This document shows, piece after piece, positions 1 through 6,120 of a DNA stretch of 64,000 bases (position 1 is its first letter; every line of letters starts with the position of its first letter). The DNA comes from Candidatus Thermoflexus tengchongensis. GTDB taxonomy: Bacteria > Chloroflexota > Anaerolineae > Thermoflexales > Thermoflexaceae. The translations under genes and the position numbers were made by a program. The DNA lies in contig JAEVEX010000044.1 of the NCBI GenBank assembly GCA_016842085.1, positions 62,001-126,000 of the forward strand, given 5' to 3'. The notes beneath the pieces were generated by a model that was not told the DNA's origin, did not search any database, and saw nothing but the letters and a program-made list of their open reading frames with translations.

Positions 1-939
1 TGGGAGAGCGGGGTCTTCCCCACCGACCGCCGCTTCACCGGCCAGCGGTGGGAGGGGACGCTGGGCCTGTATGATTACCGGGCGCGCTTCTATGACCCGG
101 CGCTGGGGCGGTTCCTCCAGCCGGACCCCCTCGTCCCGGAGCCGGGGAACCCCCAGGCCCTCAACCGGTATGCCTATGTCTACCACAACCCCCTGCGCTA
201 CACCGACCCCAGCGGGCACGCGGCCTGCATCGATGAAGGGTGCGCTTTGCTGGCCCCTCCAGGGAATCCCCGGCCATTCCTGCGCATTCCCGCACCTCGG
301 GCCATTACCTTCATCCACCGGGAGATGGTTCGCAACGCTCAAAGCAAGATCGCCACCGCCATCCACATGGCCAATGCCATCGCCCGCTGGCCCCTTTGTC
401 CAAGCTGCGTCCTCGGTGGAAAAACCCTCGCCTTCACCCTCTGGACGTCCCAGGTCATGGACGCCCAGGTGAAAAACTATGCAGGGCCTTTGGCCCCTCT
501 GCTTGGAAACTGGGACCATAAACCGATCCTCTATCCTGAGAATCCCCAACAGCAGTCCCCTGTTCCCAAGATTGTTTGGCACAAAGGCTGGTCAACAGTA
601 GGTTCTACTTTGTATCGGTTCGATATCTGGTCTAACATCCACTATGGTTATGTAGGCAGGGCTACTGGCTTCTCTCAGCCTGAACTAACCGGTGGAGCGG
701 GTGTTGAACAAATTGGTTCGGACCTTTACAACTATGGGCATACCCATCAATGGCCCCACCGGTCGCCGAGAGCGGACAACTGGGCTGCTTCATGGGATGA
801 TCCATCGGATAACGCCGCCATCCAAATTGGAATCCGTTTATGGGACCAATACGGCTTGGCGGTCAAGCCAGCCGATATTTATCTGGCTGTGCTAGAAGAG
901 CCGCGCCTGGCTACCTCGCCATTTGGAGGAACACCATGA
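1..939 (+). CDS. Rhs repeat-associated core protein, C-terminal part, with polymorphic toxin type 44 domain (5' end outside window)
   Basis: The reading frame is open from base 1 and ends at TGA 937-939, so only the last 312 residues are seen. Residues about 1-73 are the end of an Rhs core: GQRWEG, then LYDYRARFYDPALGRFLQPD, then NRYAYVYHNPLRYTDPSGH, the usual point where variable tips attach. The rest is the tip. It carries FIHREMVRNAQS, WDHKPIL, DIWSNIHYGYVGRA and DDPSDNAAIQIGIRLW, which I recognise as the polymorphic toxin type 44 (Ntox44) signature. By family knowledge this is a contact-delivered effector, probably a nuclease; its target is not shown here. The tip from about 530 is clearly more AT-rich than the core. 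Its stop codon overlaps the ATG of the next gene (ATGA), which couples toxin and putative immunity protein. Confidence 0.8.
   Translation, partial: WESGVFPTDRRFTGQRWEGTLGLYDYRARFYDPALGRFLQPDPLVPEPGNPQALNRYAYVYHNPLRYTDPSGHAACIDEGCALLAPPGNPRPFLRIPAPRAITFIHREMVRNAQSKIATAIHMANAIARWPLCPSCVLGGKTLAFTLWTSQVMDAQVKNYAGPLAPLLGNWDHKPILYPENPQQQSPVPKIVWHKGWSTVGSTLYRFDIWSNIHYGYVGRATGFSQPELTGGAGVEQIGSDLYNYGHTHQWPHRSPRADNWAASWDDPSDNAAIQIGIRLWDQYGLAVKPADIYLAVLEEPRLATSPFGGTP
31..220 (+). repeat. Rhs-core direct repeat, copy 1
   Basis: This 190-bp stretch encodes the conserved core end (RFTGQRW to DPSGH). It recurs at the same length and with very high identity at 1652-1841, and in damaged form at 3297-3399 and 4543-4700. 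It is the DNA on which tip exchange by homologous recombination would act. Confidence 0.85.
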
Positions 940-1634
940 AAAAATGGCATCGCATCTGCCACTTAGATCACCTTCTCGTTATTCTTTTGAGTATACTTTA
1001 CTTGAGTGGATGTATAGTAAATATCTTTTACTCTACTCATCGTGAGCCTGAACTCCCAATACCACAATTTTTGCAAAGACAAATCGAGGCCTTTCCACCA
1101 GGATGGTATGTGGAGGAAAGTGACATCGTAATTTGGACAGCTGCCAATGATCCTCACGGGAAATTTACAAATGCTCCCTGGGCAGTGGCAGTCGATTTCT
1201 GGTATAAAGATGGCGCACGTATTTCCAAAGGACTGGCAACAGCTCACGAACAGATTTTTGTCTATAAGAGTTCTTTTGATGCACAAACTGTTTCCTATCC
1301 TTCGGAATACTGGGCCACATATTGGGAGGGCTGGATAACCTCCAGGGCAGGCTATATCCCTCAAGGATGGATCTATCGTCCCCCTCACGCAGACCGTTTT
1401 GAATTCAAGTGCTGGGGAGGCGACGGCATCGCTAAGCCTGAGCTATGCAGCTTTATTCTCCGTTATGAGGAATACATTATCGTATTTGACACACCTATTG
1501 TAGACTATATGACTCTGGATGATCTCCAACGGGTTCTGGAGGTGATTGATCAGGAAATGACTCGCCACTTGAAAAATTCAACCCTGCGCCCAGGTCCCCG
1601 GCCTGTGCCAACCGCATTGGATAAATTGAAGTAA
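936..1634 (+). CDS. Putative lipoprotein immunity protein for the type 44 Rhs toxin
   Basis: A 232-residue protein starting at ATG 936, with GGAGGA at 925-930 and overlapping the toxin stop by four bases. The N-terminus MKKWHRICHLDHLLVILLSI is basic then hydrophobic and is followed by a lipobox-like LSGC, so the protein is probably membrane anchored. The body is rich in Trp and Tyr and I recognise no named family. Position directly after the toxin, translational overlap and envelope targeting all suggest it neutralises the type 44 toxin; this is inference from context. The gene is noticeably AT-rich against the roughly two-thirds GC of the housekeeping genes, a sign of transfer with its toxin tip. 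It could instead be an unrelated lipoprotein. Confidence 0.6.
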   Translation: MKKWHRICHLDHLLVILLSILYLSGCIVNIFYSTHREPELPIPQFLQRQIEAFPPGWYVEESDIVIWTAANDPHGKFTNAPWAVAVDFWYKDGARISKGLATAHEQIFVYKSSFDAQTVSYPSEYWATYWEGWITSRAGYIPQGWIYRPPHADRFEFKCWGGDGIAKPELCSFILRYEEYIIVFDTPIVDYMTLDDLQRVLEVIDQEMTRHLKNSTLRPGPRPVPTALDKLK

Positions 1635-1642
1635 TCCCTTCC

Positions 1643-2515
1643 TACGATCGGCGCTTCACCGGCCAGCGGTGGGAAGCCAGCCTGGGCCTCTACGACTACC
1701 GGGCGCGCTTCTACGACCCCGCCCTGGGCCACTTCCTCCAGCCGGACCCTCTGGTCCCGGAGCCCGGGAACCCGCAGGCCCTCAACCGGTATGCCTATGT
1801 TTACAGCAACCCGCTGCGCTACACCGACCCCAGCGGGCACGTCGTCCAGCTTCCCTGCCCCCGGTGCGATCGCCCCTGGATCTCCACCCAGGGCTGGCCA
1901 GGCCTCGCCGTCGATCTGGCCAAAGGCGCCTGCGCCGTCCTGGGCTGTCAGATCGACCCCGTCACGGGTCTCCTCTGGGGACCCTCTTATGCAGAATGGC
2001 TCCAGGCTCAGACCCTGGGCCTGGGAGGGCTGGCAAGCCCGGTCCAGACCCCCAGCGGATGGCTGAAGGCCAGTGGCCTCGAAGTGGCCGCCGAGCTTCG
2101 AGCCCTGGGCGCACGAGGCGTGCCGGGCGTGGAGCGCCTGGCGGCGATGATCGAAGGAGGCCGGCGCGGGGCCGTCTTCCAGGGCCAGCGCGCCCTCCAT
2201 TACGCCGAACAACTCCTCGGCGTCGAGGTGGAAATTGCATTTCCCAAAGGCCTCGGACGCGTGGACCTCCTCCTCACCGGCAACCGCATCGTCGAAACCA
2301 AAGCCTGGGAAAATTGGGAAAAACTGACACCTGAAATTCGGATAAGTATCCTCAGGCAATTCGAGGAACAGATCACGAAATACTTGAGTGATACACGCTA
2401 TACTGTGTTGGTCGAATTTAAAGGAAAGATCCTGGAAGAAGCGCTCCGGGTGCTTCAGAAGCTGGCTCAGGATCCCCGTCACACCGGGCGTCTGAACTGG
2501 ACCACAGTTCCATAG
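1643..2515 (+). CDS. Orphan Rhs C-terminal tip with PD-(D/E)XK-like nuclease toxin (no start codon)
   Basis: The frame reopens just after the immunity gene stop (an in-frame TAA lies at 1622-1624) and immediately encodes the Rhs core end again, YDRRFTGQRWEASLGLYDYR onward to TDPSGH. No ATG or GTG precedes it, so it cannot be made as a full Rhs protein. The first in-frame GTG is at 2084 and would give 143 residues holding the toxin domain alone. The tip has GRVDLLL, then about nine residues, then IVETKAW, the D...ExK pattern of PD-(D/E)XK nucleases, followed by a helical QFEEQITKYL segment. It is best read as a silent cassette that becomes active if recombined onto a full Rhs gene, or a displaced former tip. 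The exact toxin family was not identified. Confidence 0.65.
   Translation, partial: YDRRFTGQRWEASLGLYDYRARFYDPALGHFLQPDPLVPEPGNPQALNRYAYVYSNPLRYTDPSGHVVQLPCPRCDRPWISTQGWPGLAVDLAKGACAVLGCQIDPVTGLLWGPSYAEWLQAQTLGLGGLASPVQTPSGWLKASGLEVAAELRALGARGVPGVERLAAMIEGGRRGAVFQGQRALHYAEQLLGVEVEIAFPKGLGRVDLLLTGNRIVETKAWENWEKLTPEIRISILRQFEEQITKYLSDTRYTVLVEFKGKILEEALRVLQKLAQDPRHTGRLNWTTVP
1652..1841 (+). repeat. Rhs-core direct repeat, copy 2
   Basis: Same 190-bp length as 31-220 and nearly the same sequence. It begins within about 20 bp of the preceding immunity gene stop. It contains an internal microrepeat, TCTACGAC about 21 bp apart, which matters for the deletion seen in copy 4. Confidence 0.85.
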
Positions 2516-2524
2516 AGGAAATCG

Positions 2525-3301
2525 ATGCTCCCGCGAGATTGGGTAGAAGCCCTTGAGCTGAATCTAAGCTTTTGCGAGCGCCTGGATCCTGAACAAGGCG
2601 CTACCCGGCTGATTCGCATAATCCATCAGCATGGAGGCAAGTTCTTGAAATTGAACCGGCGCGAAGTGGAACCCAATCCCCTGGCAGATCTGGTCGATCT
2701 CTTTGTTCCCATCGAGCACCCTCTGCTCCAGCCCGATACCATGACAGATCCCGAAAGGGGAAAGGGGCAAGCTTCATTGAGCTTCGTGCCAGAGAGCTTA
2801 TCCGTGGGCATTAGTCAGGATGTTTCCTTCCCGGATTTGAGTCAAGTGGATCCGGTGGCTCTGGGCTTGCTGGCTTTCGGCCGGCTCCTCTACCCGGATC
2901 TGCGCCCCATATATGGATGGATCGATGAGCCCAGTGGGAATATCCCAGAGACCTCAGAAATCGCCTCCACCCAGCTACGATATATCTTCTGGGCCAACTT
3001 CTGGGGACCAGCGTATGTGGACCGATACGGACGGGATTTCCTGCGAGGGGCGCCAGGCTGGCGGGTGGAGGAGCTCGAAGACGGGGGGATCCTGTATGTG
3101 ACCACCGCCAGCTATGTGGAGTGGTGGCTGATGACCCGCCTGGACCATCTGGATCCGGAGCGCCCGCGGCTGCGGCGGTGGCTGCTCGAACGGCGCGGGC
3201 CGCTGGCCGTGCAGCGGGCCGCCATCCTGGGATATTTCCGGGCGCGAATTCCGGAAATCGAGCTGTATTGGGCCAAGGTCGATCTGGATTGGCTTCCCTG
3301 A
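2525..3301 (+). CDS. Putative immunity protein for the PD-(D/E)XK-like Rhs tip
   Basis: A 258-residue soluble protein starting at ATG 2525, nine bases after the tip stop, with GAGG just upstream. No signal peptide or membrane segment is visible, which fits a cytoplasmic inhibitor of a nuclease. Notable stretches are IYGWIDEPSGNIP, YIFWANFWGPAYVDRYGRDF and GAPGWRVEELEDGGILYV; they look like a conserved immunity-type domain but I cannot name the family with certainty. The function is inferred from the strict toxin-then-immunity order repeated three times here. Its TGA stop (3299-3301) lies inside the start of the next Rhs-core repeat, so this cassette abuts the next with no spacer. Confidence 0.5.
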   Translation: MLPRDWVEALELNLSFCERLDPEQGATRLIRIIHQHGGKFLKLNRREVEPNPLADLVDLFVPIEHPLLQPDTMTDPERGKGQASLSFVPESLSVGISQDVSFPDLSQVDPVALGLLAFGRLLYPDLRPIYGWIDEPSGNIPETSEIASTQLRYIFWANFWGPAYVDRYGRDFLRGAPGWRVEELEDGGILYVTTASYVEWWLMTRLDHLDPERPRLRRWLLERRGPLAVQRAAILGYFRARIPEIELYWAKVDLDWLP

Positions 3302-3399
3302 TCCCACCCCGGTCCCGGAGCCGAGCAACCCGCAGGCCCTCAACCGGTATGCCTACGTTTACAACAACCCGCTGCGCTACCTGGATGACGGAGGGCATC
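3297..3399 (+). repeat. Rhs-core direct repeat, copy 3 (truncated, diverged)
   Basis: Only the distal part of the repeat remains (PVPEPSNPQALNRYAYVYNN, then LRYLDDGGH in place of LRYTDPSGH). Homology begins inside the stop codon of the preceding immunity gene. Confidence 0.75.
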
Positions 3400-4029
3400 T
3401 CCCGGTCGTCCCCCTCCTGGTGGCCGGGGCGATCCTCGCCCTCAAGGTCATCGACTACGGCTGGACGGCGTGGGATGCCTCCCAGAGCCTCCGGGTGCTG
3501 CAGGATCCCAATGCCTCGGAGGCCGCGAAGACGGAAGCCGCCGCCAACCTGGCCCTCATCGCCGCCACCGAGGCCGCTGAGCCGGACGATCTGTTGCCCG
3601 TTGCCTTGCCATTGGACGACCTGGCCCGGAAGGGGATCCTCAAGCTGGGCAGGGAGGCGGGGCAGGAAGCCGCCGAGCGGGTGGGGAAGGAGATAGTGCA
3701 AGAGGCGGCGGAAGAAGCTATTGAAACCACAGCGCGAGGAGGAACCTACAAGCTGATAGACCCGGTAACCGGTGAGGTCCAGTATGTGGGACGAACCAAA
3801 GATCTGGCCAGGCGTCAGGTTGAACATCTCCGTGATCCAATCAAGAGACAACTCGGGTTCGAGGTCGACTGGCGCACCGATGACTATGCGGTTCAGCGGG
3901 GCCGCCGAGCAAATGCTCTACGATCAATATCGGCCACCGCTGAACCGGATCCGCCCCATCAGCCCGCGTCATCCTCGCCTGCAAGAATACCTGGAAGCCG
4001 CAAAGCGCTTGGAAGAACGCATGCGATAG
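3297..4029 (+). pseudogene. Orphan Rhs tip with GIY-YIG nuclease domain, frameshifted
   Basis: The frame through GTG 3420 continues the Rhs core end into a hydrophobic linker (LLVAGAILALKVI), an Ala/Glu-rich helix and then GGTYKLIDPVTGEVQYVGRT, a clear GIY-YIG nuclease start, with ARRQVEHL following. Around 3897-3903 the frame breaks: the coherent continuation (AEQMLYDQYRPPLNRIRPIS to LEERMR, stop at 4027-4029) lies in the +1 frame. One extra base in the run cagcggggccgcc explains it; without it the protein would read QRG-AEQMLYDQY. The tip also lacks a start codon, like its neighbour. So it is a damaged silent toxin cassette unless the shift is a sequencing error. The immunity gene downstream is intact. 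Confidence 0.7.
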
Positions 4030-4038
4030 GAGGAGAGG

Positions 4039-4533
4039 ATGAAAAAAGCACGCCAGAAACACATCCGCTACTCCGAAGGGCAATGGTTCGCCGTGCCCTT
4101 GAAGAATGGAGGATATGCCCTGGGAATCATTGTGCGGGGAAGTTATAAAACAAAAGGCGGCCTGGGTTACTTCTTCGGCCCCCGGTATTCGGAGATTCCG
4201 GATGAGCAGGAGACATGGCGTAAGCAGCCTTCCGATGCGATCTTGATCGGCTGGTTTGGGGATCTGGGGATCATTCAGGGTCGCTGGCCGTTGATCCCGA
4301 GCACCCGGCCGTTTCGGCGAGAGGAGTGGCCCGTGCCGAAGTTCAAGCGGATAGATGCGCTGAAGCCCGAAAAAGGCTGGCTGGTGGAGTATAGCCAGGA
4401 GATTTCCGGAGCAGGTTTACCGGTTCGAGAAGTATACTGCGATGCCAGGGATTTAGAGGGGTTGCCCGAAGATGGGCTTTATGGATATGGGGCGATTGAG
4501 AATGTGTTGACCAAGCTTTTATCCACAGAGTAG
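4039..4533 (+). CDS. Immunity protein 26 family (Imm26)
   Basis: A 164-residue cytoplasmic protein starting at ATG 4039 behind the strong ribosome site AGGAGGAGAGG, nine bases after the GIY-YIG tip stop. The pattern EGQWFAVPLKNGGYALGIIV, then GYFFGPRYSEIP, then GWFGDLGIIQGRWPLI and WPVPKFKRID matches what I know of Imm26, a family that neutralises nuclease-type polymorphic toxins. Its partner here would be the GIY-YIG tip, now frameshifted. Retention of an intact immunity gene after toxin decay would protect against kin that still carry the active toxin. That reading is inference. Confidence 0.7.
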   Translation: MKKARQKHIRYSEGQWFAVPLKNGGYALGIIVRGSYKTKGGLGYFFGPRYSEIPDEQETWRKQPSDAILIGWFGDLGIIQGRWPLIPSTRPFRREEWPVPKFKRIDALKPEKGWLVEYSQEISGAGLPVREVYCDARDLEGLPEDGLYGYGAIENVLTKLLSTE

Positions 4534-4542
4534 CCTGTGGCC

Positions 4543-4700
4543 GGCCAGCGCTGGGATGGGGCCGGGCCTCTACGACCCCGCCCTGGGCCGCTTCCTCCAG
4601 CCGGACCTGCTGGTGTCAGAGCCCGGGAACCCGCAGGCCCTCAACCGGTATGCCTATGTTTACAGCAACCCGCTGCGCCACACCGACCCCAGCGGGCACG
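4543..4700 (+). repeat. Rhs-core direct repeat, copy 4 (with internal deletion)
   Basis: Compared with copies 1 and 2 it is 23 bp shorter. Twenty-one of these correspond exactly to loss of the segment between two TACGAC microrepeats; two further bases are missing just upstream, which shifts the frame between GQRW and YDPALG. Confidence 0.75.
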
Positions 4701-4828
4701 TCCCCGTCATCCTGGTGATGATGGGGATCGGTGCAGTCAGCGGGGCCCTCATCAATTACGGCTTCCAGGTCGCGGCCAACATCCGCCAGAACGGCCTTAT
4801 TATCCAGGCCTTCACCCCCGTGAACTGA
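4543..4828 (+). pseudogene. Decayed fourth Rhs tip remnant
   Basis: GQRW lies in one frame and LYDPALGRFLQPD in another, because of the 23-bp shortening described for the repeat. After DPSGH the frame from ATG 4556 encodes a hydrophobic stretch, VPVILVMMGIGAVSGALINY, typical of the region between Rhs core and toxin, then stops at 4826-4828 after QAFTPVN. No toxin domain and no immunity gene follow. It is the oldest-looking member of the tip series and is probably non-functional. It closes the Rhs region: the next gene is a convergent housekeeping-type gene. Confidence 0.65.
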
Positions 4829-4932: not shown

Positions 4933-6120
4933 CTACGGGGCCGCCGTCCCTCCGCGATCCCCTAAACCCGCATCGATCGCCTGCAATAGCTTCCACACAA
5001 AGTCCTCCGTGCGGGCCACCACCTCCGGATCCACATTCTCATACACGTCCGATGGCTGATGCCAGTGGGGAAGCACGCCATCCGGCCGCAAATTGACGAA
5101 AGTAAGAACCCGCCAGCCCGCCCGAACAGCCGGCGCTCCATCGGTGTAGGCACCCCGGAAGTTCGGCCAGCAATAGGCACCCAGCTCCGGATGGCTCCGG
5201 GCGATCTGATCCGCCAGCATCAGCAGCTCAGGGTCGCTGCGCAGGGGCAGCAACATCGTCTCCCGGGCGAGATAACATGGACCGCTCCCAGGGCCACCCA
5301 GGGTATCCAGGACAATAAAAATGGGTCGCCCGAGATCTGCATGCTGTCGGATGAAGGCGGCGGCGCCGTATGCGCCGACTTCCTCGCAACCCGTGCACAG
5401 CGCCCATACCTCCGTGCGCTGAAGGGGCTCCCGACGAAGCCGCTCCGCCAGCGCCAGGACCATTCCGGCACCGGTGGCATTGTCGTTTGCGCCGCGCGTA
5501 TAGGGTGTGAGATCCGCCTGAATCGCGATAGCGAAAACGGCCGTTAGCAGCAGCCCCGGCAGCAGCGCCGGCAGACCCCAGTTCGGATTCCCGGTGATCG
5601 CGCCGATCAGGAACAGCACCCCGATCCCCACTGCCCCAGGAAGCCCCAGGGTCACCAGCATCCGGTAGATCGCCAGCGCTCGAGGGGAGGAAAACGCCCA
5701 CGGCGTGCGATGGGTGTCCAGATGACCGCACAGGATCACCCGTTGCCGGACCGGCCCGGCCGGCGGCAGGATGGCATAGACGTTCTGGCTTCGCCCCCGG
5801 GGGACCAGCCAGCGGAGGGGGTTCGGCGTGAAGGTGAGCTCCAGCGCCGTGCAGAGGACCAGCAGGAAGAGGCCGAGGGCGGCGATCCATCGGCCGCCGA
5901 GGAAGAAAACCGGGAACATCAGAAGCATCCCCCCGGTGGCGATGGCGAAAGGACGCCACGCCGAGGTGGCGCTCACGAAAGGCTCCACCTGCGGCTCCAG
6001 ACCCAGGTCCCGGAACACGCGAGCGGCATATTCCGCGGCTTCCCGCTCCGCCCCGGTGGTGCTCCCCCGGGGCCCAATGGTCACCGCCAGATAGGCCACG
6101 TGATCCATCGTGGAAGCCAT
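4933..6120 (-). CDS. M28 family zinc aminopeptidase with membrane segments
   Basis: A 395-residue protein starting at ATG 6120 (MASTMDHVAYLAV) with GAGGAG upstream; the longer open frame to 6441 would run into the next gene and is rejected. Peptidase motifs are visible: CGHLDTH, GANDNATGAGMVLALAE, CTGCEEVGAYGA and the late HWHQPSDVYENVD, which supply the metal ligands and the general-base Glu of the family. Two hydrophobic blocks are inserted, one at about residues 60-95 before the catalytic part and one at about 165-210 inside it, so the enzyme is probably anchored in the membrane. It likely removes N-terminal residues from peptides. M28 proteins with embedded membrane helices are uncommon but known. 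Confidence 0.8.
   Translation of the reverse strand: MASTMDHVAYLAVTIGPRGSTTGAEREAAEYAARVFRDLGLEPQVEPFVSATSAWRPFAIATGGMLLMFPVFFLGGRWIAALGLFLLVLCTALELTFTPNPLRWLVPRGRSQNVYAILPPAGPVRQRVILCGHLDTHRTPWAFSSPRALAIYRMLVTLGLPGAVGIGVLFLIGAITGNPNWGLPALLPGLLLTAVFAIAIQADLTPYTRGANDNATGAGMVLALAERLRREPLQRTEVWALCTGCEEVGAYGAAAFIRQHADLGRPIFIVLDTLGGPGSGPCYLARETMLLPLRSDPELLMLADQIARSHPELGAYCWPNFRGAYTDGAPAVRAGWRVLTFVNLRPDGVLPHWHQPSDVYENVDPEVVARTEDFVWKLLQAIDAGLGDRGGTAAP

Follow-up and report, generated by a model that had tools for sequence, protein, structure and literature searches.

The window, the 64,000-nt stretch of DNA analysed here (G000:C88:62001-126000), opens within a series of Rhs-core fragments, and all of its features given below lie on the + strand. 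This genome (G000) carries two loci of this kind, C88, which includes the window, and C11; arrays A and B of genome G002 serve as the main comparison. A contig of G006, a genome of the same genus, is identical to one of Thermoflexus sp. SKYG36, which places this hot-spring bacterium in Thermoflexus (Chloroflexota). Between window positions 1 and 4828, the Rhs-core 3′ end occurs four times as a direct repeat (24-220, 1645-1841, 3311-3411, and 4504/4612-4712), with 69-88% identity to reference copies, and all four fragments align to the 3′ end of the core of a complete Rhs gene. Copies 1 and 2, the two that were scanned, matched the Rhs_assc_core profile TIGR03696 (E = 4e-22 and 1.5e-19, respectively). 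The core fragments of elements 1 to 4 are 690, 201, 102, and 162 nt long, and the elements carry an Ntox44 toxin, a PD-(D/E)XK-like toxin, a frameshifted GIY-YIG toxin with an intact Imm26 gene, and a toxin-less remnant, respectively. The original prediction, that a core repeat restarts four times, each time after an immunity-type gene, in the unit order core-toxin-immunity, was borne out, the immunity gene preceding the first copy lying upstream of the window. The predicted near absence of spacing also held in substance, as cores start within about 11 bp of the preceding immunity stop or overlap it, though the claimed range of 0-10 bp was both exceeded and undershot, with gaps of +11 bp (1634 to 1646), −4 bp (3301 against 3297), and about +5 bp (4533 to 4538).

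Element 1 begins in the window with the 3′ part of a core fragment (1..219) that starts at about window position −470. Position 1 cuts an open frame of 526 codons that holds no more than about 690 nt of core and opens inside the end of the 139-aa immunity gene of the active tip described below. Displaced tip 1, an Ntox44-type toxin with an intact frame, follows at 220..939, and its match to PF15607 (E = 7e-17) confirmed the type 44 assignment made from the sequence beforehand. The accompanying immunity-type gene (936..1634, 232 aa) has an ATG with GGAGG upstream and encodes a lipoprotein-like N-terminus (LSGC), without a significant Pfam match. The Ntox44-type tip of G008 is also followed by a lipoprotein-like gene. 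As a separate observation, the Ntox44 tip is 82% identical to copies in genomes of other families of the class (L103-L105), whereas no other genome of its genus has a copy above 37%, so that a recent horizontal transfer of this tip is likely.

In element 2, a core fragment (1646..1840, core residues 1812-1876) without an in-frame start codon leads into displaced tip 2 (1841..2515), whose frame is intact and which carries a GRVDLLL...ETK motif. The tip is a probable PD-(D/E)XK nuclease, as proposed earlier; the assignment is supported by the GRVDL...E[TV]K motif, which is conserved in orphan 2 of array B of G002, though the profile search returned no match for this tip. An AlphaFold model of tip 2 from single-sequence input was poor (pLDDT 50) and was set aside. 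The immunity-type gene of this tip (2525..3301, 258 aa) is paired with the same tip in C11, where the tip of orphan 7 shows 93% aa identity, and G002 holds a diverged version of the pair.

Element 3 consists of a core fragment (3297..3398, core residues 1844-1876), a pre-toxin linker (3399..3656), displaced tip 3 with a GIY-YIG nuclease domain (3657..4029), and an intact Imm26 gene (4039..4533; PF15428, E = 1.6e-23) with AGGAGG upstream. C11 has the same junction between this core and the immunity gene before it. The GIY-YIG call stands through a relative, since the window copy matched below threshold (E = 0.012), whereas the G008 copy lies above the Pfam cut-off (E = 9e-5). This counterpart is orphan 1 of G008. 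A frameshift puts the C-terminal part of the domain out of frame in the window copy, and a nonsense codon interrupts the G008 copy, while Imm26 is intact in both. A programmed frameshift in this tip is unlikely, considering the nonsense codon in G008 and a further copy in G005 that remains open through the frameshift point. The URI-nuclease class of toxins corresponds to GIY-YIG. A URI-nuclease class whose partner is Imm26 is among the toxins listed in PMC3482391, where Ntox44 is recorded in Chloroflexi.

Element 4 had been read as a further toxin/immunity cassette, though 4538-4828 holds only a core remnant (4538..4699) and a truncated tip stub of 42 codons (4700..4828), which is homologous to the start of the tips of C11 orphan 2, array B orphan 1, and array A orphan 5. 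The suggested decrease in integrity along the series is only loosely correct, with tips 1 and 2 intact, tip 3 frameshifted, and element 4 without a toxin, though core lengths do not fall monotonically and other arrays contain intact tips far downstream.

The complete Rhs gene (G000:C88:54834-61070; L009:6834-13070; 2078 aa) was found about 0.9-7.2 kb upstream of the window. It has an ATG start, a strong Shine-Dalgarno (SD) ribosome site, and a hydrophobic, signal-like N-terminus. Ten stretches of RHS/YD repeats (PF05593, E = 6e-53) and the Rhs-associated core (TIGR03696, E = 1.8e-20) were detected in it (L009:6783-13067), and a profile scan of the protein found no PAAR domain. The N-terminus appears Sec-like by inspection, and the full Rhs protein is probably exported. 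The active tip of this gene, which is followed by its own immunity gene, matches no known family and differs from the three toxin types of the window. The earlier placement of the active end at the window start is ruled out by this upstream gene with another tip; the Ntox44 tip is therefore displaced element 1, and four displaced elements, not three cassettes, follow the full gene. The broader expectation of displaced toxin/immunity cassettes 3′ of a full Rhs gene was supported. Considering these features, window 1-4828 very probably represents the downstream end of an Rhs polymorphic-toxin locus, which as a whole is made up of a complete Rhs gene and then four displaced elements.

In G000, a 12.3-kb insert containing only the Rhs gene and its cassettes lies between rpsB and a gene for an M28 peptidase (L009:6642-18970, ending near window position 4970). 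The same two genes are spaced by about 250 bp in G003, the nearest relative as judged by the two neighbouring proteins (95-96% identity), and by about 590 bp in G008. By this comparison, the rpsB/M28 junction of G003 appears to be the empty site.

The layout recurs widely. C11 contains a full gene and eight further cores, with AHH and CDI_toxin_EC869_like among its tips; G002, a genome of the same genus in a single contig of 3.3 Mb, has two arrays, with a full gene followed by six and by three cores; and G008 has a full gene followed by three. Among 77 core-bearing loci found in public genomes, 42 have at least two core 3′ ends on the same strand. An assembly error joining separate loci, which had been named as a possible refutation, is unlikely because the architecture is repeated at the second locus, in the single-contig relative, and in many other assemblies. 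Independent complete Rhs genes upstream of each tip, the other such possibility, were not seen. Orphan tips are mostly intact in C11 and G002, and the last element is a remnant without a full toxin in C88, C11, and both arrays of G002. Plasmid matches to the core all had less than 60% identity, and viral carriage of the core was rejected, as viral contigs gave no match to it. A PDB sequence search with the Ntox44, active, and PD-(D/E)XK-like tips and a PADLOC search were also without matches.

It had been proposed that relatives be searched for a downstream tip fused to a full Rhs gene. Such a case was clear in orphan 2 of array B of G002, as L013 carries this cassette at the active end of an Rhs frame of 1930 codons (89.6% identity over 2.4 kb). 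The reverse was also found, the active tip of C88 being an orphan in C11 (71% aa identity), array A of G002 (87%), and L017 (87%). For the Ntox44 tip, the only fused counterpart was distant, namely the active tip of G008 (33-37% identity). Judging from gene context, one cassette lies silent in one species but is active in a second.

The alignments between loci indicate where cassettes are joined. Cassette 2 of C88 and cassette 7 of C11 share a block with 91.7% identity over 1739 nt (C11:22084-23822, C88:15649-17380), both ends of which fall in core fragments and the neighbours of which differ on both sides. Among 24 loci, all 12 alignments that run over an immunity-core junction end at or before the core 3′ end, with a different tip following each of the 12 shared junctions, and 94 of 95 tip-sharing alignments start inside a core, the exception being a pair of full genes; these alignments are partly non-independent pairs, and the pattern is one-sided. 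Because junction-crossing alignments stop, and tip-sharing alignments start, within cores, the core fragment is the exchange joint and the exchange boundaries sit in core fragments, though the core is too conserved for the crossovers within it to be pinpointed. Furthermore, the pre-toxin linker of tip 3 shows 93% nt identity to that of the active tip (L009:12411-12668), after which the toxins diverge, suggesting that the linker acts as a second exchange joint. The original proposal that new tips enter at the core and push older ones downstream was thus incomplete, as cassettes are exchanged at core fragments, also within arrays.

Toxin and immunity genes differ in their potential for expression. 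An ATG with an SD sequence is present in 22 of 24 immunity genes, while the short-core orphans of relatives are mostly without a start codon that is accompanied by a ribosome site, and cassettes 2 and 3 of C88 contain no start codon in the core frame at all. Nevertheless, dN/dS between tip pairs is 0.10-0.18, with upper 95% bounds below 0.38, and the orphan tips are thus under codon-level constraint. Low dN/dS despite missing starts points to periods during which tips occupy the active position. The constraint could partly stem from such periods ahead of the latest displacement, and in some orphans translation may start internally at a low level.

Considering these results, we propose the following scenario. 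Core fragments would serve as recombination joints, and homologous recombination at the cores flanking a toxin/immunity pair would move the pair into, out of, and along the array, so that a tip active in one strain may be silent in another. The recombination may be of the ordinary homologous type and involve DNA in linear or circular form. The immunity gene would take along the 5′ end of the core fragment behind it, while the core 3′ end would remain with the neighbouring tip. Because the immunity genes have retained starts and ribosome sites of their own and the silent tips are mostly without starts, the array would shield the cell through the immunity genes, which are presumably expressed, and would keep the tips in store for reuse. 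The toxins would act on competitors after delivery by a route that is likewise presumptive.

Alternatively, the array may be kept chiefly for its immunity genes, as a defence against neighbours, with the orphan toxins as passive and decaying passengers. This explanation deserves some weight, though it is rather unlikely: the GIY-YIG tip has been broken in different ways here and in G008 next to an intact Imm26 gene, SD sequences are found on immunity genes and are absent from most short-core silent tips, and comparable immunity arrays are known in Vibrio (PMC5361080), whereas the orphan tips of C11 and G002 are mostly intact and under purifying selection, and cassettes reappear elsewhere in the active position. 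A stricter form of displacement, in which tips are added singly at the 3′ end of the full gene, their order gives their age, and no internal exchange takes place, would account for the distal elements being the most decayed here and for the terminal remnants in C88, C11, and the two arrays of G002. However, the same cassette occurs between different neighbours in different arrays, the shared immunity-core junctions always lead to a different tip, and position 7 of C11 holds an intact tip; this strictly ordered stack is already disfavoured and appears improbable.

It is also conceivable, though very improbable, that cassettes are formed by a specific activity that cuts the core near residues 1806-1813 and not by homologous or illegitimate recombination. 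Among 24 junctions that involve distinct immunity genes, 7 have a core fragment whose 5′ end falls in this one 8-residue window (in L009, L010, L012, and L090-L092), with a Monte Carlo p of 0.002. However, the remaining junctions are scattered, the 12.3-kb insert showed no recombinase gene, and the breakpoints were taken from alignment ends in a region that follows a variable core stretch. The cluster may thus represent a preferred breakpoint or an alignment effect. By extension, Thermoflexus and related Chloroflexota might share a genus-wide, horizontally shuffled bank of silent tips, with cassettes bounded by a preferred cut point at about residues 1806-1813; the chance of this is slim, though if true, the cut point would imply a dedicated route for making or mobilising cassettes, not chance recombination. 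Exchange at the core fragments by homologous recombination remains our preferred reading.

The locus is, by its layout, a further C-terminal displacement array of an already known kind. The Rhs arrays of Enterobacteriaceae likewise consist of a full rhs gene followed by dissociated modules of core fragment and tip, with core fragments of varying length and a GC content that falls from core to tip, and exchange by homologous recombination at the core fragments was proposed for them (Jackson et al., 2009, PMC2935791). In contrast to those arrays, the host here belongs to the phylum Chloroflexota (Thermoflexus). Their model would predict the one-sided junction pattern described above, as does a double crossover of linear DNA at the core fragments on either side. 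In Jackson et al., the mechanism is a proposal that includes circular intermediates, whereas the test of shared junctions and switched tips used here gives a direct signature of core exchange.

Similarly, the Rhs loci of Snodgrassella alvi contain a 5′ complete Rhs gene and its immunity gene followed by truncated tips and immunity genes, with toxins under purifying selection and immunity genes that sometimes outlive their toxin (Steele et al., 2017, PMC5727410). In S. alvi, delivery is by a T6SS and many orphan tips are transcribed, whereas short-core orphans mostly lack starts here and the N-terminus of the full protein appears Sec-like. Orphan rhs-CT/rhsI modules are also without translation starts and have core homology through which the main gene can gain the orphan tip by fusion (Poole et al., 2011, PMC3150448); their reactivation by switching has been shown in evolved Salmonella (Koskiniemi et al., 2014, PMC3967940), whereas we infer switching by comparison across species. 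In the T6SS immunity arrays of Vibrio cholerae, successive displacement also builds arrays that retain immunity genes (Kirchberger et al., 2017, PMC5361080), though old effectors are replaced and often only the immunity genes stay, whereas whole toxin/immunity cassettes with their core joints stay here. Cassette-based toxin polymorphism is general (PMC3482391), and our literature search found no paper that pairs Thermoflexus with Rhs or describes such arrays in this genus.

Tip displacement has been worked out mainly in Proteobacteria. The same layout, with up to eight downstream cores, is now seen in thermophilic Chloroflexota, at two loci of G000 and two of the complete relative, suggesting that tip displacement is a general way to store and trade weapons. 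The pattern of shared junctions followed by different tips makes the proposed exchange mechanism testable on any set of genomes. Furthermore, silent tips that lack starts and yet evolve under purifying selection imply that such tips may return to service.

Some further observations were made at related loci. L011 (G000:C11:38256-44724) represents a second, distant Rhs family with a 2395-codon frame and one downstream core copy that is broken by an in-frame TGA. In L090, which corresponds to array A of G002, the core of orphan 1 shares 97.5% identity with that of orphan 3 over 554 nt, far more than other core pairs show, suggesting a recent gene conversion or duplication. L049, a Chloroflexota-like Rhs array with four cores, is located on a contig that has been assigned to an archaeal MAG (Methanosuratincola), probably as a result of a binning error.
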